Assembly: GCF_038007965.1 (NCBI RefSeq)
Contig: NZ_JBBOYD010000001.1
Span: 4,194,501-4,258,500, forward strand
Direction: 5' to 3'
DNA from: Niallia sp. FSL W8-0635
GTDB taxonomy: Bacteria; Bacillota; Bacilli; Bacillales; Cytobacillaceae
Length of the DNA stretch: 64,000 nucleotides
The notes under the pieces are model-generated. The model was not told the DNA's origin, did not search any database, and saw only the letters and a list, made by a program, of their open reading frames with translations. Positions 933 through 30,920 of the stretch are shown here, piece after piece. Position 1 is the stretch's first letter, and each line of letters starts with the position of its first letter. A program made the position numbers and the translations under genes.

Positions 933-1538
933 TTATTTATCAAAATTCCACTCATCTGTCTTATTGGATAACATTGAAGGAAACAATAAATTCTCTGAGC
1001 CATTATTATTAATCATTTTTGCTGGGACTCCAGCAATAGTCTTGTTAGGAATTATGAAAGACTTATTAACAACAGAATTTGCCCCAATTGCAATTCCGTC
1101 CGCAATAATTATATCTCCATATATTTTAGCACCTGGACCAATATAAACATTATCACCTATTTGCGGTACCTGAGCAAAATTATCGTTCGCAGTACCAATA
1201 TTTGTACACGCATGTAATCTACAATTTTTCCCCACTCTAGCCTTACCGTTAACTACAATAGTACCTCTATGTGCAATTGATAATCCGGGACCAAAGACAT
1301 TAACAGGGATATCAAAACCTAATGATTTTGATATCTTATGAAATCTATATTTAATATATAAGATATAAATTTTATTAAAAAAACCTTTTTTACAATTTAA
1401 ATAATACTCTAATTTTCTTAATATCCTTTCAAATCTCCAAATGTCATCTACAATTGGTCGAGGGAATCTACTTTTAATATTCAACGCTTTTTTGTCAGCC
1501 ATTAAATATTTTTTATAATCACTTTTATTTTTTATCAA
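933..1538 (-). CDS. Serine-acetyltransferase-like hexapeptide O-acetyltransferase
   Basis: This is a left-handed beta-helix acyltransferase of the CysE/EPS type. Hexapeptide repeats occupy roughly residues 80-175, including the stretches GKNCRLHACTNIG and IGDNVYIGPGAKIYGDI and the closing AGVPAK motif. I chose a TTG start at 1538, six bases after AGGTGGAG, because relatives begin MIK(S/N)K.DY; a GTG at 1550 is the alternative. The enzyme probably acetylates a sugar of the exopolysaccharide or an activated precursor. It sits between the polymerase and a GT4 glycosyltransferase in the same operon. Its position argues against a housekeeping role in cysteine synthesis. Confidence 0.8.
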   Translation of the reverse strand: MIKNKSDYKKYLMADKKALNIKSRFPRPIVDDIWRFERILRKLEYYLNCKKGFFNKIYILYIKYRFHKISKSLGFDIPVNVFGPGLSIAHRGTIVVNGKARVGKNCRLHACTNIGTANDNFAQVPQIGDNVYIGPGAKIYGDIIIADGIAIGANSVVNKSFIIPNKTIAGVPAKMINNNGSENLLFPSMLSNKTDEWNFDK

Positions 1539-1565
1539 TTCAAACTCCACCTAAACTTCCATTTT

Positions 1566-2624
1566 TCATTTTGAAATTTCACCGTATAATCCAATCAAAT
1601 CCTCCAAAGAATTATATATATTATAATTCTTCTTAATTTCTTCGAAATTATTATTAGCCATTTTATTTTGAAGTTCTATCTCGTTTAGTAATGTTACAAT
1701 TTTATTTGCCAAAGAATCAATATCCCCTGGTTTAATTAAATAACCGTTTACTCCATTTTTTATGACAGTTGGGATAGATCCTACCTCCGTAGATATTACA
1801 GGTATTCCATAACTCATAGCCTCTAATATTGACATAGGCATACCCTCATTATAGGAAGGCAATACATATATAATACTTTTAATATATATGTCTTCAATAG
1901 TTTCTTCTGACGAAACCCAACCTGGAATCAAAAACATTTCGTTTAGTGATAAAGTATTTATTTTTCTTTTAATATTATTTATCTCTCCATCGCCAGCTAA
2001 TACAAATTTATATTTATTATCGATTTTCCCCTTTAAAGTGCTTGCTACATCTATTAAGTCATATGATCCTTTTCTTTTAGAAAGTAACCCCATACATGTG
2101 ATTAAGTATTTCTCTTCGGAATTGCAAATCTTCTCTTTCGGAAATACAGCGTTGTTTAATACAACCACTCTTGTATCACAAATAGATTTATAATAGGTTT
2201 CCCATTCTTCTCCTAAAGCAAGAATTACAGTTGCTTTATTTAAAGTTCTTACTATTAAAGTTTTTTGTTTACTAGTAGATCTATCGTAATAATCCTTAAA
2301 CTGTGATCCATGCATATGCAATATTATGGGTATCCTTTTTTTATTCAAAATATTTATTATTAGTCTTTTTCTGTGAAAACTTCCTTTATATGACATGTGT
2401 ATGTGTGCAACATCATATTTTTTATTATATATATTTATATTGATATATAATTCAAAAAATTTAATTATAAAATATATTATCTTAACTAAATGATTTCCAC
2501 CGATATATGTCGGTAAATAAGTGAAATTCACTTTATTACCTATTCCAGCTTTTATATAATTTTTAACTACTCTGGTTATTCCTCCAGAAACCTTTAAGTG
2601 CGATCCAATCATTAGTACATTCAT
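1566..2624 (-). CDS. Glycosyltransferase family 4
   Basis: This is a GT-B fold glycosyltransferase of about 352 residues. The N-terminal lobe starts with a Rossmann strand and glycine loop (MIGSHLKVSGGI). The C-lobe carries the usual YNEGMPMSILEAMSYGIPVI motif, with the glutamates that contact the nucleotide-sugar ribose and phosphates. The ATG at 2624 is preferred over upstream TTG codons because AGGTGA lies 8 bases before it. It presumably adds one sugar to the undecaprenyl-linked repeat unit at the cytoplasmic face. Donor and linkage cannot be read from sequence. Confidence 0.88.
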   Translation of the reverse strand: MNVLMIGSHLKVSGGITRVVKNYIKAGIGNKVNFTYLPTYIGGNHLVKIIYFIIKFFELYININIYNKKYDVAHIHMSYKGSFHRKRLIINILNKKRIPIILHMHGSQFKDYYDRSTSKQKTLIVRTLNKATVILALGEEWETYYKSICDTRVVVLNNAVFPKEKICNSEEKYLITCMGLLSKRKGSYDLIDVASTLKGKIDNKYKFVLAGDGEINNIKRKINTLSLNEMFLIPGWVSSEETIEDIYIKSIIYVLPSYNEGMPMSILEAMSYGIPVISTEVGSIPTVIKNGVNGYLIKPGDIDSLANKIVTLLNEIELQNKMANNNFEEIKKNYNIYNSLEDLIGLYGEISK

Positions 2625-2667
2625 TTTACTGTTCACCTTTTCCAACAATCTAATAATTATTGAGATA

Positions 2668-3150
2668 TTATAACCTTTCGATGAATTCTTGAATAAGATT
2701 TATAATATTATTTGTATTAGACTTATAATCATTAAAATTGATATATTTGATTTCATTTAAAGCCTTTTCTAAATATTCAATTTCTTTTAACCCATATATT
2801 AAATTTGATTTTTCAAATTGCTCTACTATATCAAACTGATGATTATCAACATGCTCTCCATATTCAGCCAGTCTAGGAACTGCGATAACTTTTTTCTTAG
2901 ACTTAACTCCGTTAATTATTGCACCTGTTCCACCATGAGTTAACAATACATTACAATTCTTTACCATTTTTACAAATTCATCGTTATTCAAAAATTGCTT
3001 ATATTTATATAATTTCGGTTGGTAGTTCGAATGACCTGATTGAGCGAAAACATCATCGGGTTGTATTACATTTTTCTCTATTAATTTATCAATTTCAATC
3101 AATAATCTATTGAATTGAAATTTTTGAGAACCAACTGTAACAAATATCAA
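2668..3150 (-). CDS. Alg13-like glycosyltransferase catalytic subunit (PssE/Cps14G type)
   Basis: This 160-residue protein corresponds to the C-terminal half of a GT28-type enzyme. It begins IFVTVGSQ.FQFNRLL and contains LLTHGGTGAI followed by KKVIAVPRLAEYGEHVDNHQ, the UDP-sugar-binding region of Alg13/MurG-like proteins. A TTG start follows GGAGGAGG. It overlaps the stop of the upstream Alg14-like gene by 4 bp, so the two subunits are probably translationally coupled. The pair is expected to form one membrane-associated transferase that adds the second sugar of the repeat unit. Confidence 0.87.
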   Translation of the reverse strand: MIFVTVGSQKFQFNRLLIEIDKLIEKNVIQPDDVFAQSGHSNYQPKLYKYKQFLNNDEFVKMVKNCNVLLTHGGTGAIINGVKSKKKVIAVPRLAEYGEHVDNHQFDIVEQFEKSNLIYGLKEIEYLEKALNEIKYINFNDYKSNTNNIINLIQEFIERL

Positions 3151-3602
3151 TATATTCCTCCTCCATACGTTGCTTTAGGATATAACTCTTTCAATTCTTC
3201 CCATTGTACTATGAAGAGATCGGCATATTTATACATTAATTTTCCTGTTAATGTTGATGAGTTTATTTTAGAAAATGACTCAATAAAAACTATCTTCTTT
3301 TTAAAAATTTTAGCTATAATACATATTGGTACTGTAGATAATGCACCTGTGGAAATAATAACATCTGGTTTTTCTTTTATATAAATATTTAAAGATATAA
3401 TAATTATATAAATAAATTTAATAATAAAAGACAACTCTTTTCTGTTAATCTGGGGAACTAAGTAACTATCTATACCTATAGAATTGAACTTATAGTTAGT
3501 TTTTTCAGTCAATATCACACTATCATATTTTTCCATAATAGGTCTTAGCATCATTATTTGTTCTAAGTGACCACCTGATGATGCTGTAAAACATAGCTTC
3601 AA
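3147..3602 (-). CDS. Alg14-like glycosyltransferase membrane-anchoring subunit (PssD/Cps14F type)
   Basis: The protein starts KLCFTASSGGHLEQIMMLRP, the signature N-terminus of the Alg14 family, and has a hydrophobic segment near residues 68-85 followed by KPDVIISTGA. It is 151 residues, the normal size. It starts with TTG, preceded at some distance by GGAGG. It docks the Alg13-like partner encoded immediately downstream to the membrane, so that the shared active site can act on a lipid-linked sugar. The 4-bp overlap with its partner supports coupled synthesis. Confidence 0.87.
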   Translation of the reverse strand: MKLCFTASSGGHLEQIMMLRPIMEKYDSVILTEKTNYKFNSIGIDSYLVPQINRKELSFIIKFIYIIIISLNIYIKEKPDVIISTGALSTVPICIIAKIFKKKIVFIESFSKINSSTLTGKLMYKYADLFIVQWEELKELYPKATYGGGIY

Positions 3603-3637
3603 ATGAATTCAAACCTCCTCAGTATTTTAACTAACTT

Positions 3638-4312
3638 TTAATATGCATCTTTTGATCCGAACAGTACAACTACAGTTTTCATTAATATAATAAAATCAAC
3701 TAATAAAGAACGTTTCCTAATATATTCCAAATCTAGTTCTACCATCTCTTTGAATCCTATATTACTTCTCCCACTAACCTGCCAAAGCCCCGTACACCCC
3801 GGCGTCACTAACAACCTCTGCTTATCATAAGCAGAATACTCCGCAACCTCCCTAGGAAGTGGCGGTCTAGGCCCAACCAAACTCATATCCCCTCTAAACA
3901 CATTAAACAACTGCGGCAATTCATCCACACTAGTCTTCCGAATAAACTTCCCAATCTTCGTAACCCTCGGATCATCCTTCATCTTAAACATCGCACCAGA
4001 AACCTCATTCAAAGCCAATAACTCTTTCAACCGCTCCTCCGCATCCGAAGCCATCGACCGAAACTTATACATATAAAACTCTTTCCCATCTTTCCCCACT
4101 CTCAATTGCTTAAAGAAAACTTTCCCCTTTGGATCCTCTAATTTGATCAATAGCGCAATAATAATAAAAAGAATACTTAGCACAACCAAGCCACATAATG
4201 AACCAATGATGTCTATCGCTCTTTTCATTACAAGGTAGCTACGAGCTGTATTTACAGATATATTCTTTTTCTTTTCCAAATACAGAGATTGATCCTTATA
4301 AAACTCAGACAT
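3638..4312 (-). CDS. Initiating sugar-phosphate transferase (monotopic phosphoglycosyl transferase)
   Basis: This is a bacterial sugar transferase (PF02397 type) of about 224 residues. One re-entrant hydrophobic helix (near residues 30-55) follows KRAIDIIGS. Then come FRSM, the catalytic Asp-Glu pair in TSVDELPQ, and the MSLVGPRPPLP and GCTGLWQVSGR motifs. It lacks the polytopic N-terminal domain of WbaP-type enzymes. It transfers a sugar phosphate from a UDP-sugar to undecaprenyl phosphate and so starts repeat-unit synthesis. ATG at 4312 is favoured over 4318 because AGGTGG would be too close to the latter. Codon and base composition change within this gene, as noted in the findings. Confidence 0.9.
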   Translation of the reverse strand: MSEFYKDQSLYLEKKKNISVNTARSYLVMKRAIDIIGSLCGLVVLSILFIIIALLIKLEDPKGKVFFKQLRVGKDGKEFYMYKFRSMASDAEERLKELLALNEVSGAMFKMKDDPRVTKIGKFIRKTSVDELPQLFNVFRGDMSLVGPRPPLPREVAEYSAYDKQRLLVTPGCTGLWQVSGRSNIGFKEMVELDLEYIRKRSLLVDFIILMKTVVVLFGSKDAY

Positions 4313-16442: not shown

Positions 16443-19400
16443 TTATAGCTTATTATAAAAAGTTTCCATCGCTTCTTGATTATACTCAGCATAATCAAAT
16501 TTAGCGGGTACAAAGGACTCTTTTTCATTGATAATCGATTCTAAACCTTGAGCCAATCCAGTAATGCTGTTTTCCACTAGCATTCCGTATTTGCCATTCT
16601 CTAAAACGGTACGATTCGCAACAATGTCTGTAGCAACAATCTTCATTTCTAGCGTCATTGCTTCTAATAACACCATTGGTTGGCCTTCATAATGGGATGA
16701 TAGAACAAAGCAATCACATTTCTTAATAAAACTAAACGGATTCTCCATTTGGCCCATTAAGTAAACAGAATCTTTTAATTCTAGGTCCTCGATAAGTTGA
16801 CTTAATTCATCATATAAGACACCTTTCCCTAAGATATAAAGCTTACTGTTTTTGTGTTTACTATGGAATAATGCAAAGGCATGAATGAGATTATCTTGAC
16901 CTTTCTCAGGAGACAATCTTCCCATATTTACAAAATTAATGTTCCCTTCTTGAGGTTCTGGGATAAATACATCGCCAACCTGAATTCCTAGTTCTTTTTG
17001 AACCTTTAACGCTCGACAATCTAACCAGCCTAAAGGTACGTCCTTTAAGATTAAATGAGAATAGCTACCTTTTTGCGTTGTAACCTCTTTATCGACTACC
17101 ACCATTTTTCCATTTAAAGCCTGGACTTTTTTAAGCACTTTTTTTGCTCCAGGCAGTCCATAAGGATTTGTCCAAATATAATCCTTTTGCCCTAGACATA
17201 TCTCAGCAATCTTTCTTACTTCGGCTTCTTTAATGACAACTGGCTGATCTTTAATTAATTCAAATGCTCGGTAATCTAGCCAACCAATTTGACTATCATT
17301 TATATAGAATTCATAATAGGTCCCTTTGCAAGTCTTATGAATGGTTTTAACTCTTGCAATTTCGCCTGTGTATTCAGCTGCCTTGCCCAATTTTTTAGCA
17401 TCCACATTCGGATACGCTTTTGTCCAAATATCATGATTATCCGCTTTAGAAATTCTTGCATACATCGTATGGCTAATGTTTCGTTCTTCCAGCGTTCTAT
17501 CATCAATATGATCGATAAACTTTTGATGCTCTTTGTAATTTTTTTCAAACAGCTTTTGTCTTTGTTTCGTAATAGCTGCTTGCTTCGCCTTAGGCATATC
17601 AGCTGTTAACGTATATTCTTCCATGAATTGCAATGCGGAAATATCAATCCAACCAATGATGACTCCATTAACAGAGAATTGACAGTAAACACCATGCTGT
17701 GTGCTAGCTTCCTTCGTAATAGAAACAATAATATCTTTATAATCATAACTAGTAGAAACCTTTTTCATGCCTGCAACCTTATATGGTAAAGACCAAATAT
17801 GATTTCCTCTAGGTCTAATGATCATTCCCACTTTATCAATATCTTTCTCTTCGATGATGGAATCTGGCAAAATCTTTAGCGCTTGCCCTTTAATCCAGCC
17901 GATCATTTGATTATTATAGCTAAATTTATAATACATATTTCCATCTACTTTTGCTTCTCTGGAAATGAGAATTTCTGCTTGATTTAACGCCTTATCTAAA
18001 TTATCCGGTTTTGCATTTGGTTGATTTGGCAATGTATTCCACACAGGATACTTGTCAAACTTCTTAATGATTGCTCTTGCCTTAAAGAAAGAAGAGATTT
18101 TTTCCTTTACTTCTTTCGTTTCTTCCTTCTTCTCAAGCTGCAGAATTTTATCTGGATTAATGGAGTTCATAATATAATCAAACTTTTCATAATCTGCATA
18201 CTCTGCTAAATTCTTTCTGTTTAATTCCATCGTACCTTTTGATACACTGACTAATTTATCAAAACGATTATAAATAGAGAAAAGTCCTCTTAAATTAATG
18301 CGATGGGGTCTTCTTTTATTAATGACTTTCTCGCTTTCTGATAGTAAATCATTATGCATATAACAGATTTTTTTCTTCGCATCTGCCACAATTAAGTATT
18401 TTGCCCAATAGAGACTATATCCACTGAAATCGATGATGTAATCAAACTTAGCTTTTCCAAATAGACGTTCATGCTCTCTAACATAGGCTTTCTCAGGGAA
18501 GAATCTTTTTCCTAAAAAGCCTCTTGCCCCTCTATTATGAACAAATCGATCACGATAAATTTCCATTATGCTATATACAGGCAATCCTGGCTTGAAAAGG
18601 AAGCGAACATTCTTATTAACCTTACTGATATTGTTAAGAACTTCCTGTGAATGAGGAGTACCAGTAAAGCAGCTGACATCAAATTTATCGTAGTCAATGT
18701 TATTCATTAAATTAATAAAGGAAGAGGTAATCCCATTATCTCGCATGCCACCAGGATAGATAAGAATCTTTTCTTTCTTAGTGTCCAAATCCTTTCCTAC
18801 ATTTAACTTATTTTGTTTCTTAAAGATATACTGAACAACTCTTTCTGTAACCTTCCCATCATCATGGTTAACAAATCTTTTCTGCATTACTTGATAGTTA
18901 TTCTTGTAACTATCATGAACCAATTCAATGTTGCTAATTGCTTCTGCCAATTCCTTTATATTTAATAGAATAGGACCTGGAAGCTCATCATTGGATAAGT
19001 ATTGTCCTCTTTCCTCGCTATAAACATCGTTATCCCACATATAGAATAAGATAGGTTTATTCGTTACAAGGAAATCAAAGAAGATACTTGAATAATCCGT
19101 TACTAATATATCCACTGTGGAAAGCAATTCATTTGTATCAACAAAATCAGGAACCAATTTAGTAGATAATTCCTCACTCTTAGCAGCTTCTTTATATAAA
19201 TATGGATGTACCTTTACCAAGACATTGTACTTATCGCCGACTTTCTCTTCTAAATAATGTAAATCCGCATTAATCTGCAGCACGTCATTATTTACTTTGG
19301 AAACATTTGTCCCCTTCCATGTTGGCGCATATAAGATATTTTCTTTCTTGTCTTCTAGCTTTAATCCTAAACCTCGTAGGAATTCATTATACTCCTGTGG

Positions 19401-20045
19401 ATTTGTGTTGATTGTGCCATCGATTCTTGGATAGCCCTCTTCCACAATCTCCCCTTTATACAAGCCATTTAATTTATAGCTATCTGTAAACATTCTTGTA
19501 GTATGTGCATTAGGACTTAACAGATATTGCGCACTTAAAAAATTTCTTAGTACGTTCTGTGAATGAGATGGATTTCCTGGGATATCAAATCCCATGCTTT
19601 TAAGCGGCGTACCATGCCATGTATTAATATATGTTTGTTCTTTTTTCGGAATAAAAAAAGATTGAAACGTTGAATTATTAATTAAGTATTCACTAGAAGC
19701 TAAGCTTTTTAAGTATTCTTTTGAATTACGTTTCACGAACTTAACATTAGACATACCCTCATAATCCTTTATTACATGGGAAAGAGCATCGAAATCGGCA
19801 ATCGACCAAATATGTTGATAACCACTGAAATCAGGATGATTTAACATATACTTAAACATCGCATAGGGACTATCTGTCATACTGTTTCCATCGCGACTTT
19901 CATACATAATTGTATTTTTCTTCACATGAATAGAAGTATAATATTTCGCATATCGATTTACACGTCTATGGTTATCCTTCGTTAAATAATTAAAGACAGG
20001 CTCTTTTATGAAGTTTATCTTTCTTTTTAATACCTTCTTATTCAC
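16443..20045 (-). CDS. CDP-glycerol glycerophosphotransferase fused to a GT4 glycosyltransferase interrupted by GW repeats
   Basis: Residues about 1-400 are a TagB/TagF-type CDP-glycerol glycerophosphotransferase: NTWHGTPLKSMG near 145, VKVHPYLY, and TDYSSIFFDF near 320. From about 425 a GT-B enzyme begins (KILIYPGGMRDNGITSSF). Its second lobe appears only near 1035 (FVNMGRLSPEKGQDN, then HYEGQPMVLLEAMTLEM). Between the lobes are four SH3-like GW repeats ending in IGWIKGQAL, IGWIDISAL, IGWLDYRAF and LGWLDCRAL (about 710-1015). The GTG at 20045 is preferred over TTG at 20057, which abuts GGGG. The enzyme probably polymerises or primes glycerol phosphate and adds a sugar. No signal peptide is present. 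Confidence 0.88.
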   Translation of the reverse strand: MNKKVLKRKINFIKEPVFNYLTKDNHRRVNRYAKYYTSIHVKKNTIMYESRDGNSMTDSPYAMFKYMLNHPDFSGYQHIWSIADFDALSHVIKDYEGMSNVKFVKRNSKEYLKSLASSEYLINNSTFQSFFIPKKEQTYINTWHGTPLKSMGFDIPGNPSHSQNVLRNFLSAQYLLSPNAHTTRMFTDSYKLNGLYKGEIVEEGYPRIDGTINTNPQEYNEFLRGLGLKLEDKKENILYAPTWKGTNVSKVNNDVLQINADLHYLEEKVGDKYNVLVKVHPYLYKEAAKSEELSTKLVPDFVDTNELLSTVDILVTDYSSIFFDFLVTNKPILFYMWDNDVYSEERGQYLSNDELPGPILLNIKELAEAISNIELVHDSYKNNYQVMQKRFVNHDDGKVTERVVQYIFKKQNKLNVGKDLDTKKEKILIYPGGMRDNGITSSFINLMNNIDYDKFDVSCFTGTPHSQEVLNNISKVNKNVRFLFKPGLPVYSIMEIYRDRFVHNRGARGFLGKRFFPEKAYVREHERLFGKAKFDYIIDFSGYSLYWAKYLIVADAKKKICYMHNDLLSESEKVINKRRPHRINLRGLFSIYNRFDKLVSVSKGTMELNRKNLAEYADYEKFDYIMNSINPDKILQLEKKEETKEVKEKISSFFKARAIIKKFDKYPVWNTLPNQPNAKPDNLDKALNQAEILISREAKVDGNMYYKFSYNNQMIGWIKGQALKILPDSIIEEKDIDKVGMIIRPRGNHIWSLPYKVAGMKKVSTSYDYKDIIVSITKEASTQHGVYCQFSVNGVIIGWIDISALQFMEEYTLTADMPKAKQAAITKQRQKLFEKNYKEHQKFIDHIDDRTLEERNISHTMYARISKADNHDIWTKAYPNVDAKKLGKAAEYTGEIARVKTIHKTCKGTYYEFYINDSQIGWLDYRAFELIKDQPVVIKEAEVRKIAEICLGQKDYIWTNPYGLPGAKKVLKKVQALNGKMVVVDKEVTTQKGSYSHLILKDVPLGWLDCRALKVQKELGIQVGDVFIPEPQEGNINFVNMGRLSPEKGQDNLIHAFALFHSKHKNSKLYILGKGVLYDELSQLIEDLELKDSVYLMGQMENPFSFIKKCDCFVLSSHYEGQPMVLLEAMTLEMKIVATDIVANRTVLENGKYGMLVENSITGLAQGLESIINEKESFVPAKFDYAEYNQEAMETFYNKL

Positions 20046-20135
20046 TACCGTATACAACCCCTTTAGTTTGCTATCATCACTTTATGTTTAGATTATATCT
20101 ATGTGAAAAAAATTCATTATTTTCGCTTGCACAAA

Positions 20136-20287: not shown

Positions 20288-20680
20288 TTATTTCACACCA
20301 GCAAGCTCTTTTTTAATTTGAGTAGTAGAAATACCATTTGTTCGTGGTAAATAGATAACATCGCAATACTGGTTCAAGAAATCGAATTTCCCTTCCCAAT
20401 CATCTCCCATAACAAAGAGATCAATATTATGATTTACAACGTCCTCTACTTTTTGCTCCCAGGTATGTTCTGGAATAACTTCGTCCACATATTTAATTGC
20501 TTCTAAGATTAACTTTCTATTTTCATAGTTATGGAAGGACTTTTTCCCTTTTATTTTATTAAATTCATCTGAAGAGATAGCAACAACCAAATAGTCCCCT
20601 AAACTTTTTGCTCTTCTTAATAAATTTATATGCCCCCAATGCAATAAATCAAATGTTCCATAAGTGATTACTTTTTTCAC
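20288..20680 (-). CDS. tagD: Glycerol-3-phosphate cytidylyltransferase
   Basis: This 130-residue nucleotidyltransferase contains GTFDLLHWGHINLLRRAK (the HxGH CTP-binding motif) near residue 8 and the ISTTQIK motif at the C-terminus. The length equals TagD/TarD. It makes CDP-glycerol from CTP and glycerol 3-phosphate, the donor used by the fusion enzyme encoded downstream. A GTG start at 20680 follows GGGAGAGTGA. It lies at the head of the minus-strand wall-polymer genes. Confidence 0.96.
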   Translation of the reverse strand: MKKVITYGTFDLLHWGHINLLRRAKSLGDYLVVAISSDEFNKIKGKKSFHNYENRKLILEAIKYVDEVIPEHTWEQKVEDVVNHNIDLFVMGDDWEGKFDFLNQYCDVIYLPRTNGISTTQIKKELAGVK

Positions 20681-22076: not shown

Positions 22077-23192
22077 ATGAGTGATTTACAAGTATGGTCA
22101 CAATGGGAGCGATTTATCGCTGCGTTTGAGCGTTTCAACTGGATTGATATAGGTATCGCCTTACTAATCTTTCTTGTATTCTTAGGGTTTAGAAAGCTAT
22201 TTACAACCTATATTTTCAAGTTAGTGTTAGGAATGGTAAAGAAACTACCAGTAGATATTGTTTCAAAAATATTATTAGCGTTTGAAAAACCACTTCGTTG
22301 GTTCTGGGTCATTATCGGAACTTACTTGGCATTAACCTATTTGCCATTTCCGATTACTACGTTCAAATTTGTACAACTAATATACAAGTCTTTTATTATC
22401 GGATTAGCCGGTTGGGGAATTTTCAATTATTTTTCCGATCAATCCAATCCTTTTGAACGAATGATATCAAAAACAAAGTTAGATTCAGATAGTATGCTGA
22501 TTCCTTTCTTAGGAAGAGTATTCCGCATGCTTGTCGTTATCTTTACGGCTGTTAGCATTCTAGATACATGGGATATTCAAATTGGTGCCTTTGTTGCTGG
22601 TCTCGGGGTTGCTGGACTTGCCTTCTCCCTAGCAGCACAGGACACGGTTGCTAACTTCTTCGGCGGTGTCGTCATTATTACGGAAAAGCCATTTTCTAAG
22701 GGCGACTGGATTCAAACTCCTTCTGTGGAAGGAACAGTCGAGGATATTTCATTTCGTAGTACACAAATTCGTACATTTGCTGATTCGGTTGTGACCGTTC
22801 CTAACTCGAAGCTTTCCAATGAAGCGATAACGAACTGGTCGAAGATGTCGAAGCGACAAATCAGCTATGAATTGGCGGTCTCTTATCACACGCCAAACGA
22901 AAAATTAAAGGCTGCTTTATTGGAAATAGAAGAAATGCTACGTGCAAATCCTGGTGTAAATCAAGATGTCATCATGGTACGCTTCAGTGAATTCCGTGAT
23001 TACAGCTTAGGCGTATTCGTCTATTTCTTCACAAATACAACCGTTTGGGCTGAATATTTAGGAGTCAAAGAAGAAACCAATTTAGGAATTCTTAACATTT
23101 TAGAAAAACATGGAATTGAAATTGCATTACCTAGTCAGCAGATTTATTTGCCGGAGAAAGAGGAAGGGAAGAAATTGATGGCTGGGGAGTGA
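22077..23192 (+). CDS. MscS-family mechanosensitive channel
   Basis: This 371-residue protein has three or four N-terminal hydrophobic helices. The pore-lining helix AGLGVAGLAFSLAAQDTVANFFGG near residue 190 is diagnostic of MscS. It is followed by the beta domain (EKPFSKGDWIQTPSVEGTVEDISFRSTQIR). It releases osmolytes on hypo-osmotic shock. GAGGTGAT precedes the ATG. Its 3' end is duplicated about 500 bp downstream, as listed separately. Confidence 0.95.
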   Translation: MSDLQVWSQWERFIAAFERFNWIDIGIALLIFLVFLGFRKLFTTYIFKLVLGMVKKLPVDIVSKILLAFEKPLRWFWVIIGTYLALTYLPFPITTFKFVQLIYKSFIIGLAGWGIFNYFSDQSNPFERMISKTKLDSDSMLIPFLGRVFRMLVVIFTAVSILDTWDIQIGAFVAGLGVAGLAFSLAAQDTVANFFGGVVIITEKPFSKGDWIQTPSVEGTVEDISFRSTQIRTFADSVVTVPNSKLSNEAITNWSKMSKRQISYELAVSYHTPNEKLKAALLEIEEMLRANPGVNQDVIMVRFSEFRDYSLGVFVYFFTNTTVWAEYLGVKEETNLGILNILEKHGIEIALPSQQIYLPEKEEGKKLMAGE

Positions 23193-23258
23193 GGGGTTTT
23201 GGTAGAAGACAAGGTACGGAGGTGCCTTGTCTTTTTTTGTTTGTTTGTTGGGCTGGGG

Positions 23259-23402
23259 TTGGCTGATATATTTGTAGGTTGGCTGATTTTCTCCTCTCTT
23301 TGGCTGATTTATTTCTAGTTTGGCTGATTTTCTCCTCTGTTTGGCTGATTTATTTCTAGTTTGGCTGATTTCCTCCTCTCTTTGGCTGATTTTCTTTTTT
23401 TT
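23259..23402. repeat. TTGGCTGAT tandem array, 7 units
   Basis: Core TTGGCTGAT starts at 23259, 23279, 23300, 23320, 23341, 23361 and 23382, a strict alternation of 20 and 21 nt. Two spacer types alternate (TTATTTCTAG-like and TTCTCCTCT-like). It lies just downstream of the MscS gene. The minus-strand frame through it (23127-23414) has no independent support as a gene. Confidence 0.9.
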
Positions 23403-23597
23403 TCGTTGATTCACCCATCACTTTCGCTGCTCCCTCCACTAATTTCAGCTTATCCACACCACACAATTGTTTATTTGTCGTTTTTTTGCATAAGAACACT
23501 AATTCAATGAGTAAATTCTGTTGGGAAACTGGTTGTTCCGATATATCTTAGAAGGGAATACTGTCCTTTCCAGAAATACACTTTTTGAACTTTGTCT

Positions 23598-23626: not shown

Positions 23627-23690
23627 CCTAGTCAGCAGATTTATTTGCCAGAGAAAGAGGAAGGGAAAAAGTTGATGGCTGGGGAGTGAG
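23627..23690 (+). pseudogene. Duplicated 3' end of the MscS gene
   Basis: These 64 bp match 23130-23193, the last 21 codons of the channel gene with its stop, at 61 of 64 positions. It lacks a start and upstream coding sequence, so it is a non-functional fragment. The TTGGCTGAT array lies between original and copy. Confidence 0.9.
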
Positions 23691-24253: not shown

Positions 24254-24332
24254 AAAATAATATACAAGTACAAAATATTGTTGTAAAATAAGGATATAAG
24301 CTAATGATTCTAACGAAATGAGGTGCTTTAAA

Positions 24333-24443
24333 ATGTTGGAAAAATTGTTCAACTATATTATGGAAAAACCGTTATTAAGTGCCGAAGATAATTTAGAGTA
24401 TGAATTTCTATTGGAAGAAGAATATCTAGCTAGTGAAATTTAG
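24333..24443 (+). CDS. EKPLLSAEDN-family small peptide, member 1 (36 residues)
   Basis: The peptide is MLEKLFNYIMEKPLLSAEDN followed by LEYEFLLEEEYLASEI. The leader ACGAAATGAGGTGCTTTAAA is nearly identical to those of members 2 and 3 and contains the ribosome binding site GAGGTG. A dedicated terminator follows. The N-terminus is amphipathic and the C-terminus acidic; there is no signal peptide. After its TAG the DNA continues with a stretch homologous to the last codons of member 2 (AAATATCATTAATATA). Member 1 has therefore probably lost its last six residues to a new stop codon. The function is unknown. Confidence 0.8.
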   Translation: MLEKLFNYIMEKPLLSAEDNLEYEFLLEEEYLASEI

Positions 24444-24501
24444 ATGAAAAAATATCATTAATATATAAAAAGTCCTTTTTAGATACATTCCTAACGTGGA
24501 C

Positions 24502-24536
24502 AGAGGTTCGGATGCTGCATTCCGAACCTCTTTTTT
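24502..24536 (+). terminator. Terminator of peptide gene 1
   Basis: A perfect stem AGAGGTTCGGA/TCCGAACCTCT around an 8-base loop, then TTTTT. Confidence 0.92.
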
Positions 24537-24652
24537 GTTTTTATTCCTCCTTTTAGCGGATTACCTATCAAGTAAGAGCAAGGAAGAAAATAAAGCCAGA
24601 ATAACATTGGTTTTTTTTACGGATAATATCTTCTAATTGAGGAGGTGGCAAT

Positions 24653-24838
24653 ATGAAATGGAATGGTGCAAAAAAAATAATTTGGCTATTAATAGCGAGC
24701 ACGCTTTTATCAACTATATTTAGTACGTTTATGATGATTTTAAGCATGAAAATTAAAAATGATGTATCCTTTCTAAGAAGAAAATTATGTAATTCAGGTG
24801 ACAATGCTATAAGATTTCAAAAGTATCGGAAACCATAG
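24653..24838 (+). CDS. Small membrane protein of 61 residues
   Basis: ATG at 24653 is preceded by a near-perfect GAGGAGGTGG ribosome binding site. The product begins MKWNGAKKIIWLLIASTLLS and has one long hydrophobic helix (about residues 8-32) followed by a basic tail ending FQKYRKP. It lies between peptide genes 1 and 2 and has a terminator at 24914-24943. I do not recognise the family; a small single-pass regulator or anchor is possible. Confidence 0.65.
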   Translation: MKWNGAKKIIWLLIASTLLSTIFSTFMMILSMKIKNDVSFLRRKLCNSGDNAIRFQKYRKP

Positions 24839-24913
24839 CATTTGTTTATATAATCGCTGCCTTTTTTCATTGCTGGTACCGCTATTTGTTCTCTTTAAAT
24901 GGCTAAAATGCTT

Positions 24914-24943
24914 AAGGGTTCTCTCCTATCGAGAATCCTTTTT
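24914..24943. terminator. Shared terminator of the 61-residue gene and the HIT gene
   Basis: AAGGGTTCTC pairs with GAGAATCCTT (one G-T pair) around 7 bases, then TTT. It lies between convergent genes. Confidence 0.8.
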
Positions 24944-24944
24944 G

Positions 24945-25367
24945 CTAAACTATTTGACTTATTGCTCCCAACATCTTCACTTGCGTTTCTTTTAACTTCT
25001 CTGACTCCTCTATATTACCGCCATACTCCGAATAGAAGGATGCAAAGGACTGGTCTTTATATCTTGGGACTACATGCATATGGTAATGGGTAAGTTCATT
25101 GAATATCCCGCCGTTTTGGCATACGGTTATGCCATCTGGAAGATATAATTCCTTTATTGCTTTTGAAAGAATGATGGAGGCTGTCATTATCGACTTTGCT
25201 GTTGCTTTATCTAATTCGTCTACATCGTGAAAATGCTTTTTTGGAAGGATTAATGTATGTCCTTCGTTAAATGGTTCGTGATCTAAAAAACAACATACAT
25301 TTTCATCCTCATATACAACATATACTGGTTCGTTCTGATTTGCTAAATTACAGCCTAAGCAGTTCAC
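24945..25367 (-). CDS. HIT-family nucleotide hydrolase/transferase-like protein
   Basis: This is a 140-residue histidine-triad protein. The C-terminal motif THYHMHVVPRY carries the HxHxH core, and GHTLILPKKHFHDVDELD is the usual upstream segment. Two N-terminal cysteines (CLGC) may bind zinc, as in related Hit proteins. A GTG start at 25367 follows GGGAGAG. It is expected to hydrolyse adenosine phosphoramidates or dinucleotides in the cytoplasm; the physiological substrate is unknown. It is convergent with the 61-residue gene and stands alone. Confidence 0.9.
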   Translation of the reverse strand: MNCLGCNLANQNEPVYVVYEDENVCCFLDHEPFNEGHTLILPKKHFHDVDELDKATAKSIMTASIILSKAIKELYLPDGITVCQNGGIFNELTHYHMHVVPRYKDQSFASFYSEYGGNIEESEKLKETQVKMLGAISQIV

Positions 25368-25622
25368 TTCACACTCTCCCTTTTTATCTGTAAATATTAC
25401 CTCTTATAAAACTCCAAAAGTTTTCGGAAAACCATTCTTTTAAGACTTATGTACAACTTCCACTCAATTGCTAAAAAAAAAAGATGGACGAAAATAAAGC
25501 AAAACAGCTAATCCTTCAATAAAAGTTAATACATATTTCATAGTTGATAAACATTTCGTTAATAATACTTTTGTAAAATAAGGGTATAAGAGTATTATCC
25601 TAACGAATTGAGGTGCTTTAAA

Positions 25623-25751
25623 ATGTTTGAAAAACTGATTAACTATATCATCGAAAAACCTTTATTAAGTGCCGAAGATAATTTAGAGTATGAACAATTA
25701 TTAGAAACAGATTTTGAAGATAGCGACATAGACATAAATAAATATCATTAA
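25623..25751 (+). CDS. EKPLLSAEDN-family small peptide, member 2 (42 residues)
   Basis: The sequence is MFEKLINYIIEKPLLSAEDN followed by an acidic tail LEYEQLLETDFEDSDIDINK and YH. The upstream region from about 25572 (TTGTAAAATAAGGGTATAAG) to the start codon is shared with members 1 and 3, including GAATTGAGGTGCTTTAAA. The core coding bases TTATTAAGTGCCGAAGATAA are identical in all three. It has its own terminator at 25760. This is probably the full-length form of the family. It has no signal peptide, so it is an intracellular peptide of unknown role. Confidence 0.8.
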   Translation: MFEKLINYIIEKPLLSAEDNLEYEQLLETDFEDSDIDINKYH

Positions 25752-25759
25752 TATAGGAT

Positions 25760-25790
25760 AGGGCGCCTTTTTGGGTGCCCTATTGTTTTT
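25760..25790 (+). terminator. Terminator of peptide gene 2
   Basis: AGGGCGCC pairs with GGGTGCCCT (one G-T pair) around a T-rich loop, then TATTGTTTTT. Confidence 0.85.
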
Positions 25791-25972
25791 CTTTAAAAAG
25801 AGTTAGGAACTCTCTTTTACATAGGAAGAAGAATTGAATTCCCCAACTGAAAAAACGATAACAAGGTATAAGAAAATTTACAAAATATTAAAAAAAGCGC
25901 TGCATCTTGTTAATATTCTTATCATAAAATATGAATATAGAAGTATTATATCAACGAATTGAGGTGCTTTGT

Positions 25973-26083
25973 ATGTTAAAAAAATTATTCCATTACCTAT
26001 TAGAAAAACCGTTATTAAGTGCCGAAGATAATACTGAGTTTGAAGAGCTTTTAGGAAGCGTGCTTGAGGAAGAATACGTTTGA
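25973..26083 (+). CDS. EKPLLSAEDN-family small peptide, member 3 (36 residues)
   Basis: The sequence is MLKKLFHYLLEKPLLSAEDN followed by TEFEELLGSVLEEEYV. It keeps the amphipathic N-terminus, invariant core and acidic C-terminus of members 1 and 2. Its leader CAACGAATTGAGGTGCTTT and upstream AT-rich block align with theirs, and it ends before a dedicated terminator. It lies 221 bp downstream of member 2, in the same orientation. The function is unknown. Confidence 0.8.
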   Translation: MLKKLFHYLLEKPLLSAEDNTEFEELLGSVLEEEYV

Positions 26084-26121
26084 GTATCGCTATTACATAA
26101 AATATAATGAATTTTATTAAT

Positions 26122-26147
26122 AAGGCATCTGTTTAGGATGTCTTTTT
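26122..26147 (+). terminator. Terminator of peptide gene 3
   Basis: AAGGCATC pairs with GGATGTCTT (one G-T pair), followed by TTTTG. Confidence 0.7.
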
Positions 26148-26222
26148 GTTTTGTATTTGAATGAGTACGCTCATTGTCTTCATTTAGTATCCTTCTCATA
26201 TGGACAATTCATTCGGTTTGTC

Positions 26223-26339: not shown

Positions 26340-26381
26340 AATTGTCTTTTTTATGGTGCCTGGCACCGAAAAAAGACAATT
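26340..26381. terminator. GGTGCCTGGCACC hairpin, copy 3, terminator of the MarR gene
   Basis: A 13-bp outer stem (26340-26352 with 26369-26381) encloses GGTGCC/GGCACC. The outer arms end in T6 and A6, so it can act on both strands. It overlaps the stop codon of the MarR gene. Confidence 0.8.
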
Positions 26382-26880
26382 ACTTTTTCTTCTCTTTCGG
26401 CAAAAAAAGTACATCGAAATCCTCTAAGCTATCAATCCCATCTGCTTCCATCTTCTCGCCAACTGCTGCTACCAATAATCGGATTCCTTCTTCTACGGCT
26501 ACCTGCTCGCTTGGCTGCAAATTTTCTAATACCGAACCCATTATTTTTTGAATCGGCTTTGGTGATGTTTCTTCAATTATTTTGACCATTTTTTCTGTTA
26601 ACATAATCTGTACAGAGCGTTTGTCTTGCGGATTCGGTTTCTTAATGAGAATCCCTTTTTCTGTTAGTCTTTCCACAATATCCGAAACCGTACTTTGTGT
26701 CATGCGAAGATTTTGGGTAAGCTGCTTTACACTAATTTTTTTATTTATAAAGACCTCTAGAATGACGCGTGCTTGCGGAGCCGTTAGTCCATGCTCTTCT
26801 GCATGTCTCTGTAGGCTCTTCATAATAAAGCGATTCAAGAAATCAATCGATTCCCAAATGTATGTGGCCCTATCTAGCAT
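26380..26880 (-). CDS. MarR-family transcriptional regulator
   Basis: This 166-residue winged-helix protein has a recognition-helix region QLTQNLRMTQSTVSDIVERLTEKG near residues 55-78 and a wing IKKPNPQDKRSVQIMLTE. Both are typical MarR features. GGAGTTATCAA precedes the ATG. It lies downstream of, and co-oriented with, the two ABC exporter genes, but it is separated from them by their terminator and a MITE-like element, so it probably has its own promoter. It is the likely regulator of the exporter pair; the 26-bp palindrome at 30921-30946 is a candidate operator. Confidence 0.93.
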   Translation of the reverse strand: MLDRATYIWESIDFLNRFIMKSLQRHAEEHGLTAPQARVILEVFINKKISVKQLTQNLRMTQSTVSDIVERLTEKGILIKKPNPQDKRSVQIMLTEKMVKIIEETSPKPIQKIMGSVLENLQPSEQVAVEEGIRLLVAAVGEKMEADGIDSLEDFDVLFLPKEKKK

Positions 26881-27182: not shown

Positions 27183-29030
27183 TTACGATGCCTCTTCAAA
27201 CTGACTATTATAAAGCTCTGCATAGAAGCCATTCTTTTCAATTAGTTCCTTATGCGTACCTGCTTCGATAATGTCTCCCTCTTTCATCACGAGGATTAAG
27301 TCTGCATTTTTTATCGTCGACAGTCTATGGGCAATAACAAAGGAAGTTTTTCCTTCTGTCAGCTTATCCATTGCTTGTTGAATCAACAATTCTGTGCGCG
27401 TATCGACAGAGCTAGTCGCTTCATCGAGAATAAGCAATGGTGCGATTTTTACCATCGCACGGGCAATAGTAATAAGCTGTTTTTGCCCTGCTGATAAACT
27501 CGTCTTGTCATCTAAGATTGTATCATAGCGATTTGGCAGTGTTTGAATGAAATGATGTAATCCTACTGCTTTGCAGGCTGCTTCCACTTCTTCATCGGAT
27601 ACACCTTCTCTAGAATACACGATGTTATCGCGAATCGAACCTTCAAATATCCATGTATCCTGAAGCACCATGCAGAATAAATCATGGAGCGCTTCTCTTG
27701 TCATTTGATTGGTTGGAACACCATCAATAGTAATTTCCCCACCATTCACCTCATAAAAACGCATAAGCAAGTTAATTAACGTTGTTTTTCCAGCTCCAGT
27801 TGGACCTACTATCGCTACCTTCTGACCAGCTTTTACCTGTACAGAAAAGTCCTTTATAACGGCTTTATCTTCACTGTATCCAAAGCGTACATGCTTAAAT
27901 TCCACATCGCCTTTAACATTCTGCAGTTTTTCTTTCTTTTCTACTTCCTTAACAAGCTCTTCTTCTGCCAAGAATTCAAAAACACGTCCACTTGCCGCTG
28001 CAGTTTGTTGTAAATTTGTTGCCGCTTGTGCAATTTGCTGAAGCGGCTGTGTAAATAAACGAATGTAGAGCATAAAGGCAACAATAACACCAAATGAAAT
28101 ACTTCCATTAACGGCAAGCACTGCACCAACAATACATACAACCACATAGCCGAAGTTTCCAATAAACATCATTAATGGCATCATCAGCCCTGACATAAAT
28201 TGCGATTTCCATGCACTTTCAAATAGTCGCGTATTAATGGACGTAAAAGCATCCTTCGCCTGTTGCTCCCCATTGTAAGCTTTCACAACATTATGACCAG
28301 AATAGATTTCCTCTATATGGCCATTCAGTTTCCCAAGCTCTTGCTGCTGTTGGGCAAAGAACTTCTGTGATTTTGAAATAATAAAAAACATAAAGGCAAA
28401 ACCAATGAATGTAGAGAGAATCGCTGTAATTGCCATAATCCAGTTAGTATAGAACATCATGATTAAAGAACCGATGAACATCGTAACAGCCGTAATTAAG
28501 CTACTAACACTTTGGTTCATCGTCTGTCCAACCATATCAACATCATTTGTGACACGGCTTAGAACATCACCTGTTGTTGTATTATCAAAATAGCTTAAAG
28601 GCAATCGATTAATTTTCCCCGAAATATCTCTTCTTAATTGTTTCGAAATCCTTTGTGTAACAGTTGCCATAATAAAGCCTTGAACATAATTGAAAATATA
28701 GCCTAACCCATAGAGGAATACCAGAAAAATAGCAACATCATAGACAGCATCAAGATCAATTTCTCCCATTAAACCTGCTGTAATATAGTCTGTCATTTTG
28801 CTTAGCTGATCAGGACCAATAATACTGAAGATCGCTGCTGCCATCGCAAGGATTAAAGCCAGGATAATAATTGGAAAATAGGCTTTACAGTAAACTCCTA
28901 ATTCCTTCAAACTCGATAAATTCATGCCTTTCGCAGCAGGAGGGATTGCTTCTGTTGGCTGTTTATCCTGCTCCTCGGTTTGGGAGGAATTTAATTTATT
29001 TTGCGCTTCTTTTTCATGACGTTTACCCAA
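27183..29030 (-). CDS. ABC exporter half-transporter, second subunit
   Basis: This is a type-IV exporter half-transporter. An N-terminal cytoplasmic stretch of about 45 residues precedes a six-helix membrane domain and an ATPase with GPTGAGKTT near residue 407, signature SLSAGQKQL near 510, and LLILDEATSSVDTRTE. A TTG start at 29030 lies 9 bases after AGGAGG and overlaps the upstream gene by 8 bp, so translation is coupled; a longer frame to 29084 lacks a ribosome site. With the partner upstream it forms a heterodimeric multidrug exporter of the BmrCD/LmrCD type. The substrate is unknown. Confidence 0.93.
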   Translation of the reverse strand: MGKRHEKEAQNKLNSSQTEEQDKQPTEAIPPAAKGMNLSSLKELGVYCKAYFPIIILALILAMAAAIFSIIGPDQLSKMTDYITAGLMGEIDLDAVYDVAIFLVFLYGLGYIFNYVQGFIMATVTQRISKQLRRDISGKINRLPLSYFDNTTTGDVLSRVTNDVDMVGQTMNQSVSSLITAVTMFIGSLIMMFYTNWIMAITAILSTFIGFAFMFFIISKSQKFFAQQQQELGKLNGHIEEIYSGHNVVKAYNGEQQAKDAFTSINTRLFESAWKSQFMSGLMMPLMMFIGNFGYVVVCIVGAVLAVNGSISFGVIVAFMLYIRLFTQPLQQIAQAATNLQQTAAASGRVFEFLAEEELVKEVEKKEKLQNVKGDVEFKHVRFGYSEDKAVIKDFSVQVKAGQKVAIVGPTGAGKTTLINLLMRFYEVNGGEITIDGVPTNQMTREALHDLFCMVLQDTWIFEGSIRDNIVYSREGVSDEEVEAACKAVGLHHFIQTLPNRYDTILDDKTSLSAGQKQLITIARAMVKIAPLLILDEATSSVDTRTELLIQQAMDKLTEGKTSFVIAHRLSTIKNADLILVMKEGDIIEAGTHKELIEKNGFYAELYNSQFEEAS

Positions 29031-30771
29031 TTTCGAGTTCCTCCTTTGATAATTGTGATAAGGCAATTTCTTGATACACATCACATGTGATCATCAGCTC
29101 ATCATGCGTACCCATTCCAACTACTTCCCCTTTATCTAAAACAAGAATTCGATCAGCATCTTTAATCGTTCCAATACGCTGTGCAACGATAATGTTTGTG
29201 GCATCATTTATTTTCTCTTTTAACTTGGAACGTAGCACGCGGTCTGTTTTATAATCCAATGCAGAAAACGAATCATCAAATAAATAGATTTCCGGATCTT
29301 TATAAATGGCACGAGCAATCGATAATCTCTGTTTCTGCCCACCAGAAAGATTCGTTCCCCCTTGCGAAATCGCTGCTTCATATTGTTCTTCCATTTTTTC
29401 AATAAAATCCTTTCCTTGCGCAATTTCTACTGCTCTTTTCACTTCCTCTTCCGTTTGCTTCTCTCCGCCAAAAGCGACATTGGAAGTAACGGAACCACTG
29501 AACATAACCGCTTTTTGGGATACATAGCCAATTTTATCTCGCAGCGCTTCTAGCTTATAATTTTTCACGTTAAGGCCATCCACCAGAATTTCGCCATCGG
29601 TTGCTTCCATAAAACGTGGAATCAGGTTGAGTAATGTACTTTTTCCACTACCTGTTGAACCTATGATTGCGACTGTTTCTCCCTTGGAAGCAGTAAAGCT
29701 GATATCTTTAAGAATATAATCATTCGCACCAGGATATTTAAAGCTAACATGGCGAAATTCAATTTCTCCTTTGCTGTCCCCTTCCGATTGTGCACCACTC
29801 TTTATTTTCACCTCAGTATCCAGCACTTCGTTGATTCTTTTCGCTGAAACAGCGGCACGAGGAAACATGACAAATGCGATAGAAAGCATCATAAAGGCCA
29901 TAATAATCTGCATCGCATAAGAAGAAAATACGACCATATCAGAGAACAATGGTAATCTATCTGCCATTGGAGCATTATTGATTAGCACCGCTCCAATCCA
30001 GTAAATAGCAAGACTCATCCCTGACATAATAAGAGTAATTGTCGGCATCATCACAGCCATTGTTCTTGTTGTAAAAAGATTCGTATCTGTTAGTTCCTTA
30101 TTCGCTTTCTCAAACTTCTCTTCGTGATAATGAGTTGCATTATAAGCATGAACCACACGAATACCTGTTAAATTTTCTCTTGTTACCATATTAAGATTAT
30201 CTGTTAGCTTCTGGATTACTTTAAATTTAGGAAGTGCCACAAGAACAAGGATAGCGATTAACACTAGTAGCACCACAATCGCGACACCAGTTGCAGCGGT
30301 CCATTCCCAGCTTTTCCCCATAATCTTAAAAACACCCCAAACCGCAATAATCGGAGCCTTTATCACAATTTGCAAGCTTAATATAATCAGCATTTGCACT
30401 TGCATAATATCATTAGTAGAACGAGTAATTAAGCTCGCTGTAGAAAAACTAGAGAGCTCTTCCATTGAAAAGGATAAGGTTTTATCAAAGACCTTTTTGC
30501 GCAGGCGATTTGAAAAGCCAGCAGCTACTTTTGCCGCAAAATAGACGGTTATAATGGATGCAACCATGCTCCCCACTGCACAAAGTAACATAAATGCCCC
30601 TTGTGTGAGAACGTCACTTAACTCACTTCCTTCTGTTTGAACAAGTCTCGTGATTTCCGCCATATAATCTGGAAGCTTCAAATCAAGCCATACTTGCCCA
30701 ACAATAAAGACTAACGCACAGACAATGAGCCACCAGTCTCTCTTCTCGAAATTTTTAAAAATCCTTAACAT
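29023..30771 (-). CDS. ABC exporter half-transporter, first subunit
   Basis: This 582-residue half-transporter has a six-helix membrane domain (WWLIVCALVFIVGQVWLDL is the first helix) and an ATPase with GSTGSGKSTL near residue 370, signature NLSGGQKQRLS and IYLFDDSFSALD. The Walker B aspartate is followed by D rather than E, as in the degenerate site of heterodimeric exporters. Its partner carries a normal DEA. ATG at 30771 follows GGGGAGGAA; earlier in-frame ATGs are less well placed. It is first in the operon and overlaps its partner. Confidence 0.93.
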   Translation of the reverse strand: MLRIFKNFEKRDWWLIVCALVFIVGQVWLDLKLPDYMAEITRLVQTEGSELSDVLTQGAFMLLCAVGSMVASIITVYFAAKVAAGFSNRLRKKVFDKTLSFSMEELSSFSTASLITRSTNDIMQVQMLIILSLQIVIKAPIIAVWGVFKIMGKSWEWTAATGVAIVVLLVLIAILVLVALPKFKVIQKLTDNLNMVTRENLTGIRVVHAYNATHYHEEKFEKANKELTDTNLFTTRTMAVMMPTITLIMSGMSLAIYWIGAVLINNAPMADRLPLFSDMVVFSSYAMQIIMAFMMLSIAFVMFPRAAVSAKRINEVLDTEVKIKSGAQSEGDSKGEIEFRHVSFKYPGANDYILKDISFTASKGETVAIIGSTGSGKSTLLNLIPRFMEATDGEILVDGLNVKNYKLEALRDKIGYVSQKAVMFSGSVTSNVAFGGEKQTEEEVKRAVEIAQGKDFIEKMEEQYEAAISQGGTNLSGGQKQRLSIARAIYKDPEIYLFDDSFSALDYKTDRVLRSKLKEKINDATNIIVAQRIGTIKDADRILVLDKGEVVGMGTHDELMITCDVYQEIALSQLSKEELEIG

Positions 30772-30920
30772 GAATCCATTCCTCCCCATGTTGCCAAACA
30801 TATTTGTTGGTTTTGATGTTAATGTTCCTTCATCTCAGCTTGTGTTCCAGCCCTTTGTTTTATTCTGGATCCATATTTTGAGGTTATTTTACAAACTAAA
30901 AACTATATCGAACAAGATGC

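Follow-up and report, generated by a model that had tools for sequence, protein, structure and literature searches.

What do three short open reading frames lying close together in the genome of Niallia sp. FSL W8-0635 encode, and on what might their products act? The frames, designated A1, A2 and A3, are found in a stretch of 64,000 nt (contig NZ_JBBOYD010000001.1, positions 4,194,501 to 4,258,500 of the forward strand; hereafter the window), and an earlier note, prepared from the letters alone, had drawn attention to them as a set of small peptides with a common core. We find that A1-A3 are protein-coding genes and, as judged by sequence comparison, members of a new, narrowly distributed family of microproteins of roughly 35-47 residues, comprising three subfamilies (A, B and C), of which the window carries the first. 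The explanation we prefer, to which we assign a probability of about 40%, is that these are intracellular microproteins whose amphipathic first helix would bind a partner, perhaps one acting in surface-glycopolymer synthesis; we infer location, partner and pathway alike.

The three genes and their relatives

The frames, lengths and coordinates given for the three genes in the earlier note were correct:

24333..24443, + strand: A1, microprotein of 36 residues, MLEKLFNYIMEKPLLSAEDNLEYEFLLEEEYLASEI; relative P0007 identical at 34/36 positions
25623..25751, + strand: A2, microprotein of 42 residues, MFEKLINYIIEKPLLSAEDNLEYEQLLETDFEDSDIDINKYH; relative P0005 identical at 35/42 positions
25973..26083, + strand: A3, microprotein of 36 residues, MLKKLFHYLLEKPLLSAEDNTEFEELLGSVLEEEYV; relative P0011 identical at 30/36 positions

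A1-A3 are taken to be coding because the changes among them are mostly silent and because each of the three genes has its own counterpart among relatives. Over their first 28 codons, A1 and A2 differ by 6.5 silent changes on 13.7 sites and by 5.5 replacement changes on 70.3, and the silent and replacement proportions are 0.587 and 0.166 for A1 and A3, and 0.693 and 0.185 for A2 and A3. The same excess of silent change, the measure by which the note had proposed to check coding, was obtained within subfamily B, where loci from two genomes (L007 and L008) show 6.0 changes at 23.5 silent sites and 6.0 at 117.5 replacement sites, and within subfamily C, where one member (L147) compared with three relatives yields 10.5-11.5 changes at about 25.7 silent sites and 4.5-6.5 at about 106 replacement sites. 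The concern that the peptides might be confined to this strain is answered by the existence of homologues, with changes that are in frame and mostly silent where DNA was compared; the final protein search (E-value, E, <=10) returned 15 proteins, all at E <=0.0093, of which P0001 is A2 itself and P0008 has the same sequence as A3. Three of the relatives (P0005, P0007 and P0011), probably encoded on one 6,166-base contig, are each nearest a different window peptide, with the identities given above, and from this matched set we conclude that the three-gene arrangement is probably older than the strain. A1 ends where P0007 continues for a few residues, so the tails appear free to change. Another subfamily A protein (P0006, on a 344,775-base contig) is labelled Mycobacteroides abscessus, and its assembly is probably contaminated or mislabelled.

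The core pattern GAAAAACCNTTATTAAGTGCCGAAGATAATNNNGAGT occurs three times in the 64 kb, each time with 0 mismatches where up to three were allowed (mean of 0 in 100 dinucleotide shuffles), and repeat analysis groups the coding stretches as a three-copy family of 98 nt, with 70% and 81% identity to the reference. The peptide core EKPLLSAEDN, described in the note as invariant, is indeed identical in A1-A3 and differs in subfamilies B and C, so that its invariance does not extend to the family. Even among subfamily A relatives the EKP varies (KKP in P0009, EIP in P0010), and PLLSAEDN is kept in all 12 short subfamily A sequences of alignment A4. Subfamily A is thus of the window type, subfamily B carries EKPLFV and subfamily C ERPLF/W. 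The consensus of B is MLEKLF(N/H)Y......EKPLFV(E/D)E, drawn from L007 (genome G003), L008 (identical to P0012, G004) and P0013-P0015; members of C have 44 residues and the form MIKSVWSLINYALERPL(F/W)SEHDSFLMDDEED...

Subfamily C was first found in three genomes (G002, G005 and G007) at E 0.041-0.049, with a profile built without it, and was identified from the frames; a profile that included C then recovered an additional copy in G006 at E 1.7e-11. In pairwise comparisons with C, from pairs selected after the search, 0 or 1 of 5000 shuffles scored as well for A1, A2 and P0005, 1 or 5 for A3, and 61 to 618 for subfamily B. Because B reaches C poorly and A reaches it well, the link between B and C depends on A as a bridge. 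With the full profile, convincing members (E 1.7e-11 or better, values that are independent for G006 and not for the sequences used in building the profile) are present in 7/13 Niallia genomes, always with one subfamily per genome: three A in G000, one B each in G003 and G004, and one C each in G002, G005, G006 and G007. The remaining six gave no match or matches at E 0.069 and weaker.

Searches beyond the genus support this narrow distribution. The full profile reached no better than E 0.031 in 180 non-Niallia genomes of the family Cytobacillaceae, and the profile of A and B yielded no outside match better than E 0.0098 in a sample of 397 genomes of the order and none up to E 0.01 in a sample of 398 genomes of the class. 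The match at E 0.0098 (L105) was set aside as a frame without a start codon, and seven other weak matches (L004, L009, L011, L012, L015, L106 and L157) were likewise set aside after reading; two matches to the 20-mer in genome contigs have only LLSAED in common with the core (L005), or LLSAED and the following N (L006), and the rest of the peptide is unlike. A 51-residue frame from another family of the order (L108, G572, E 0.032) contains LLSAEVNAEFENLL with AAGGTG ahead of it and compares with A1-A3 at a level reached by 0 or 1 of 5000 shuffles, yet it has neither the KPL turn nor the first helix; it is possibly a very distant relative or a chance likeness. Among phages and plasmids, where the searches covered A and B, no match was found for A2, nor in viral contigs for the 20-mer or the profile of A and B; the window DNA gave only matches of 28-36 bases to phages, and the best PHROGs match had E 0.068.

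The statement in the earlier note that no described family has this core is supported by the family libraries, in which no convincing match was found. Pfam gave one match at E 0.021 (15.3 bits against a cut-off of 27) and NCBIfam an unconvincing one at E 0.018, whose cut-off was not displayed; PADLOC and PDB sequences gave none for A and B, and two Rfam matches fell far under the gathering score. The literature search retrieved no paper containing EKPLLSAEDN, EKPLFVEED, KPLLSAED or PLLSAEDN, and none of the titles listed dealt with a family of this sort. Bacillus proteins that are small and act inside the cell as binders are a known kind, and the Niallia family is new to the libraries used. 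Very small proteins are easily overlooked by gene finders and family libraries. Here, three subfamilies form a coherent family in which purifying selection has been measured and which those profile libraries leave unnamed.

Predicted structure and gene neighbourhoods

The predicted first helix is amphipathic in all six sequences tested, its moment being reached by 1 to 115 of 5000 shuffles (16 for subfamily C, or 61 with a shorter cut), and spans residues 2-11, or 2-14 in B and C. Net charge ranges from -6 to -10 in six sequences, and alignment A7 has invariant columns at Y8, P13, L14 and E24 (numbering of its first sequence), with no Cys or Ser in common. The absence of a signal peptide proposed in the note accords with the lack of a hydrophobic signal-like stretch in the five sequences examined (highest 17-residue hydropathy 0.36-0.55), as assessed by hydropathy only and with no signal-peptide program. 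We consider the binding of another protein to be the best reading of these peptides on account of their size, their single conserved face, the conserved turn and the free acidic tail.

On the mechanism we put forward, each of the three genes would be expressed from its own leader and end at its own terminator-like site, giving a product with an N-terminal helix that is amphipathic, a turn that is conserved (as a rule (E/K)(K/R)PL, then L, F or W, with D a few residues on) and an acidic tail that changes fast. First helix and turn would dock on a partner protein inside the cell and alter its activity, in a manner analogous to small inhibitor and adaptor proteins of Bacillus, and the likeliest partner, guessed from gene neighbourhoods, would belong to the surface-glycopolymer (teichoic acid) machinery.

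Subfamily C lies between LCP-like and TagO/WecA-like frames in 4/4 genomes, with a hairpin-like sequence after the gene. Neighbour profiles for these loci were run on G005 only. There, the adjacent LCP protein scored 133.6 bits with the general LCP model, over its cut-off of 62.3, and failed the TagU model (227.6 against 441), and the TagO-like protein matched Pfam Glycos_transf_4 and remained below the cut-off of TIGR02380 (156.8 against 326). The same 19-kb stretch encodes TagH (365.9, cut-off 320), galU, a TarF-like protein under its cut-off (468.3 against 550) and a second LCP protein that passes as TagU (475.4 against 441). Around subfamily A, the window contains two genes of this kind, the second of them a single 1204-residue frame joining the three domains named:

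20288..20680, - strand: glycerol-3-phosphate cytidylyltransferase, TagD type (TIGR01518, 208.3 bits, cut-off 165.4)
16443..20057, - strand: CDP-glycerol glycerophosphotransferase, GW repeats and group 1 glycosyltransferase (PF04464, PF13457, PF00534)

Subfamily A lies 3.7 kb from the tagD-type gene, with an MscS gene in between, and the distance between subfamily B and galU is 0.9 kb in both of the genomes with B, one 163-residue frame intervening (galU profile run for G004); in G004 this frame has no Pfam match, and a CBO0543-family gene stands on the other side of B. That three loci should each lie near surface-polymer genes is more than we would expect by chance, by judgement rather than by a computed statistic. 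A 51-residue frame also found near B in both genomes (L007 577-732, minus strand; L008 2337-2492, plus strand) presumably resembles SinI-type anti-repressors.

Several observations weigh against a partner-binding peptide of the cell-wall machinery. Amphipathicity is lacking in the second half of the peptide, whose moment is reached by 970 to 4052 of 5000 shuffles in five sequences, and the AlphaFold2 models of A (helices 2-11 and 21-32) and B (helices 2-14 and 21-45) are weak, with predicted local distance difference test scores of 64.9 and 69.5 and predicted template-modelling scores of 0.31 and 0.26; a PDB fold search with them returned 0 and 1 matches, with a best E of 6.5. The family is dispensable, given that 6/13 Niallia genomes have no convincing member. 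The tie of A to teichoic acid genes is loose, since MscS intervenes and since another genome, G012, retains the order MscS, 61-residue gene, HIT and MarR with the peptides absent (HIT, MarR and the ABC transporters beyond A were named by eye). For B, galU is the sole surface-polymer neighbour, the other surrounding frames, mostly named by eye, looking unrelated, and galU serves other pathways as well. The 61-residue gene in question corresponds to window positions 24653-24838, has a hydrophobic N-terminal half and is conserved at the same place in G012 (L048 3479-3664).

These points bear directly on the possibility, somewhat doubtful in our estimation, that the partner bound by the microproteins belongs to a process other than cell-wall synthesis, such as a kinase of sporulation or stress in the way that Sda binds KinA, with neighbourhoods that reflect chance or a variable region in which accessory genes gather. 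Subfamily A does lie in a variable stretch, which in G012 carries other genes instead, and B has its single surface-polymer neighbour; against this stand the position of C, which is the same in 4/4 genomes and in G005 falls within a stretch that also carries teichoic acid genes, and the lack of any match to an Sda family in Pfam or NCBIfam. A more ambitious form of the reading we prefer holds that the peptides constitute a Niallia-specific set serving the teichoic acid machinery, with a single subfamily in each species that has a member, each beside a different polymer step, that would tune an enzyme such as TagO or an LCP transferase and hence the amount or kind of polymer. We regard this extension as unlikely. 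Should the link to teichoic acid hold, the family would offer a way into a cell-wall pathway through a small protein.

Comparison with known small proteins and RNase R

Among characterized proteins, PMC7430163 describes Sda as a 46-residue inhibitor of the sporulation kinase KinA in which two helices are joined by a loop to form a helical hairpin, and SR1P as a 39-residue protein that binds GapA and is encoded by a dual-function small RNA. The likeness to Sda lies in a stand-alone small protein with two helices, as predicted in the weak models of A and B; Pfam and NCBIfam list no Sda family for the Niallia members at E up to 10, and no kinase link has emerged for them. Neither an acidic tail nor a PL turn is known in Sda. 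With SR1P, compared by description and not by sequence, the family shares small size and a proposed intracellular action through enzyme binding, whereas its members are short genes with Shine-Dalgarno-like sites.

For a toxin or a kinase/phosphatase partner, which the note had offered as possibilities only, the analysis gave evidence neither for nor against. Two further classes of peptide were considered. Type I toxin peptides are hydrophobic and span the membrane, in contrast to the charge of -6 to -10 and the highest 17-residue hydropathy of 0.55 found here. AgrD-type precursors of exported or cyclised signals form their ring through a Cys or Ser of fixed position and are encoded next to AgrB/AgrC-type genes. 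The small size, amphipathic N-terminus and acidic C-terminus of the Niallia peptides recall such precursors, but there is no ring residue in common (the Ser in the core of A is missing from B, and there is no conserved Cys), and Pfam and NCBIfam gave no match above cut-off. No AgrB/AgrC-type gene was recognised by eye in the frames of the window, the MscS gene being the only one of the nearest genes scanned with profiles; two ABC-transporter-like frames are found at 27183-30801. We hold a signal precursor to be very improbable.

A bolder and very unlikely proposal follows from the likeness of subfamily B to the N-terminal helix-turn-helix of RNase R, and would connect the peptides to RNase R or to its binding of the 30S subunit; according to PMC10901742, the N-terminal domain anchors the enzyme on 30S and its deletion lowers the association. 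In the order sample, N-termini of RNase R (L088, L089, L091, L092 and L093, identified by eye) made up five of the six top matches to the B profile, with RNase R at E 4.3e-4; L090 and L100 are other proteins. Profile comparison of B with an RNase R alignment of 13 Niallia sequences and three sequences picked by the B search gave an hhalign probability of 89.5 over 21 columns at 43% identity; against single sequences the values were 89.8 and 87.5 for two picked RNase R and 16.9 for that of B's own genome, with 97 other open frames at <=2.0, and L007 compared with its own RNase R was equalled by 1 of 2000 shuffles. These figures are flattering, since RNase R was chosen after a search. The likeness was tested for A and B and is limited to the first helix and the KPL turn; the match of B stops after 21 columns, short of similarity over the whole domain, and A shows little of it. 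Comparison of A with its own RNase R was equalled by 141 to 654 of 2000 shuffles, and with the picked RNase R of G474 by 13 to 70; the hhalign values for A were 7.4 (profile A1) and 29.6 (profile A6), and two single RNase R sequences scored 20.3 and 13.5 with profile A6, next to 9.0 for a control, with the peptides' own RNase R outside the best 8.

Expression signals and the identical core

The similarity of the leaders claimed in the earlier note holds, in that GAGGTGCTTT and an AT-rich upstream block align in A1-A3, and the assignment to each gene of its own terminator is supported by one terminator-like site after each (mean of 0.5 in shuffles), the third being weak:

24274..24332, + strand: shared promoter/leader block of A1 (TAAAAT..G..TATA...GAGGTGCTTT), aligned with those of A2 and A3
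25564..25622, + strand: shared promoter/leader block of A2, aligned with those of A1 and A3
25914..25972, + strand: shared promoter/leader block of A3, aligned with those of A1 and A2
24320..24329, + strand: Shine-Dalgarno-like GAGGTGCTTT of A1
25610..25619, + strand: Shine-Dalgarno-like GAGGTGCTTT of A2
25961..25970, + strand: Shine-Dalgarno-like GAGGTGCTTT of A3
24502..24531, + strand: terminator-like hairpin after A1 (fold of 24444-24545, z -4.8)
25757..25784, + strand: terminator-like hairpin after A2 (fold of 25741-25800, z -4.3)
26122..26144, + strand: weaker terminator-like hairpin after A3 (fold of 26084-26155, z -1.7; 11/200 shuffles fold equally well)

Repeat analysis recovers the leaders as a three-copy family of 68 nt (74% and 76%), and the upstream block of subfamily B is closely similar to those of the window. 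A leader model (R1) scored strongly at five places, which are the five genes used to build it, in a search that scored 150 of about 1,600-3,600 first-look candidates per genome; in the 16 loci that were read, its weaker matches (best E 6e-4) were followed by unrelated frames or by no frame at all. Possible promoters at A1 (TATACA-17-TAAAAT) and A2 (TTGTAA-16-TATTAT) are two of 17 sites listed, compared with 11.1 in shuffles. By eye, TTTTGTAAA stands 52 nt ahead of the ATG of subfamily C and 54 nt ahead in A2; MAFFT leaves these sites unaligned, and for this reason we do not claim a shared promoter for C.

The 20 bases that the note had reported as identical in A1-A3 are so (24372-24391, 25662-25681 and 26012-26031), and this identity raises the question of whether RNA-level constraint or gene conversion maintains the core. 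Where the three genes share a residue, silent variation affects 0/7 codon columns of the core and 5/10 of the flanks (probability 0.04), a contrast that rests on small numbers and was tested after the data had been seen. In subfamily B, L007 codes K-P-L as AAG CCA CTA, compared with AAA CCG TTA in A1; since other codons serve for shared residues, an RNA element is not common to the family, and the constraint suggested in the note finds weak support in the window and none as a family feature. Conversion of whole genes is at odds with P0005, P0007 and P0011, each nearest a different window gene. Maintenance by conversion or an RNA element is improbable, and a better account of the identity is common descent or conversion, together with selection on the protein. 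A translated leader or attenuator, in which translation would matter more than the peptide and the terminator would be the output, could draw on the hairpin after every frame and on the silently invariant core bases of the window. We judge it highly improbable, given that selection acts on the protein, that the hairpins are unlike in sequence and that past A3 there is no evident gene on the same strand, just short frames, before or over an opposite-strand frame at 26380-26880 (MarR-like by eye).

Other repeats were noted around the three genes. The final 64 bases of the MscS gene (23130-23193) recur 497 bases downstream and outside the gene (23627-23690) with 95% identity, and a tandem array with a 41-base period lies directly past that gene (window 23218-23422). 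Three copies of TTTTTATGGTGCC(T/A)GGCACC occur at window positions 23597, 26223 and 26348, of which the second and third, in the interval from A3 to the MarR-like gene, are inverted relative to each other.

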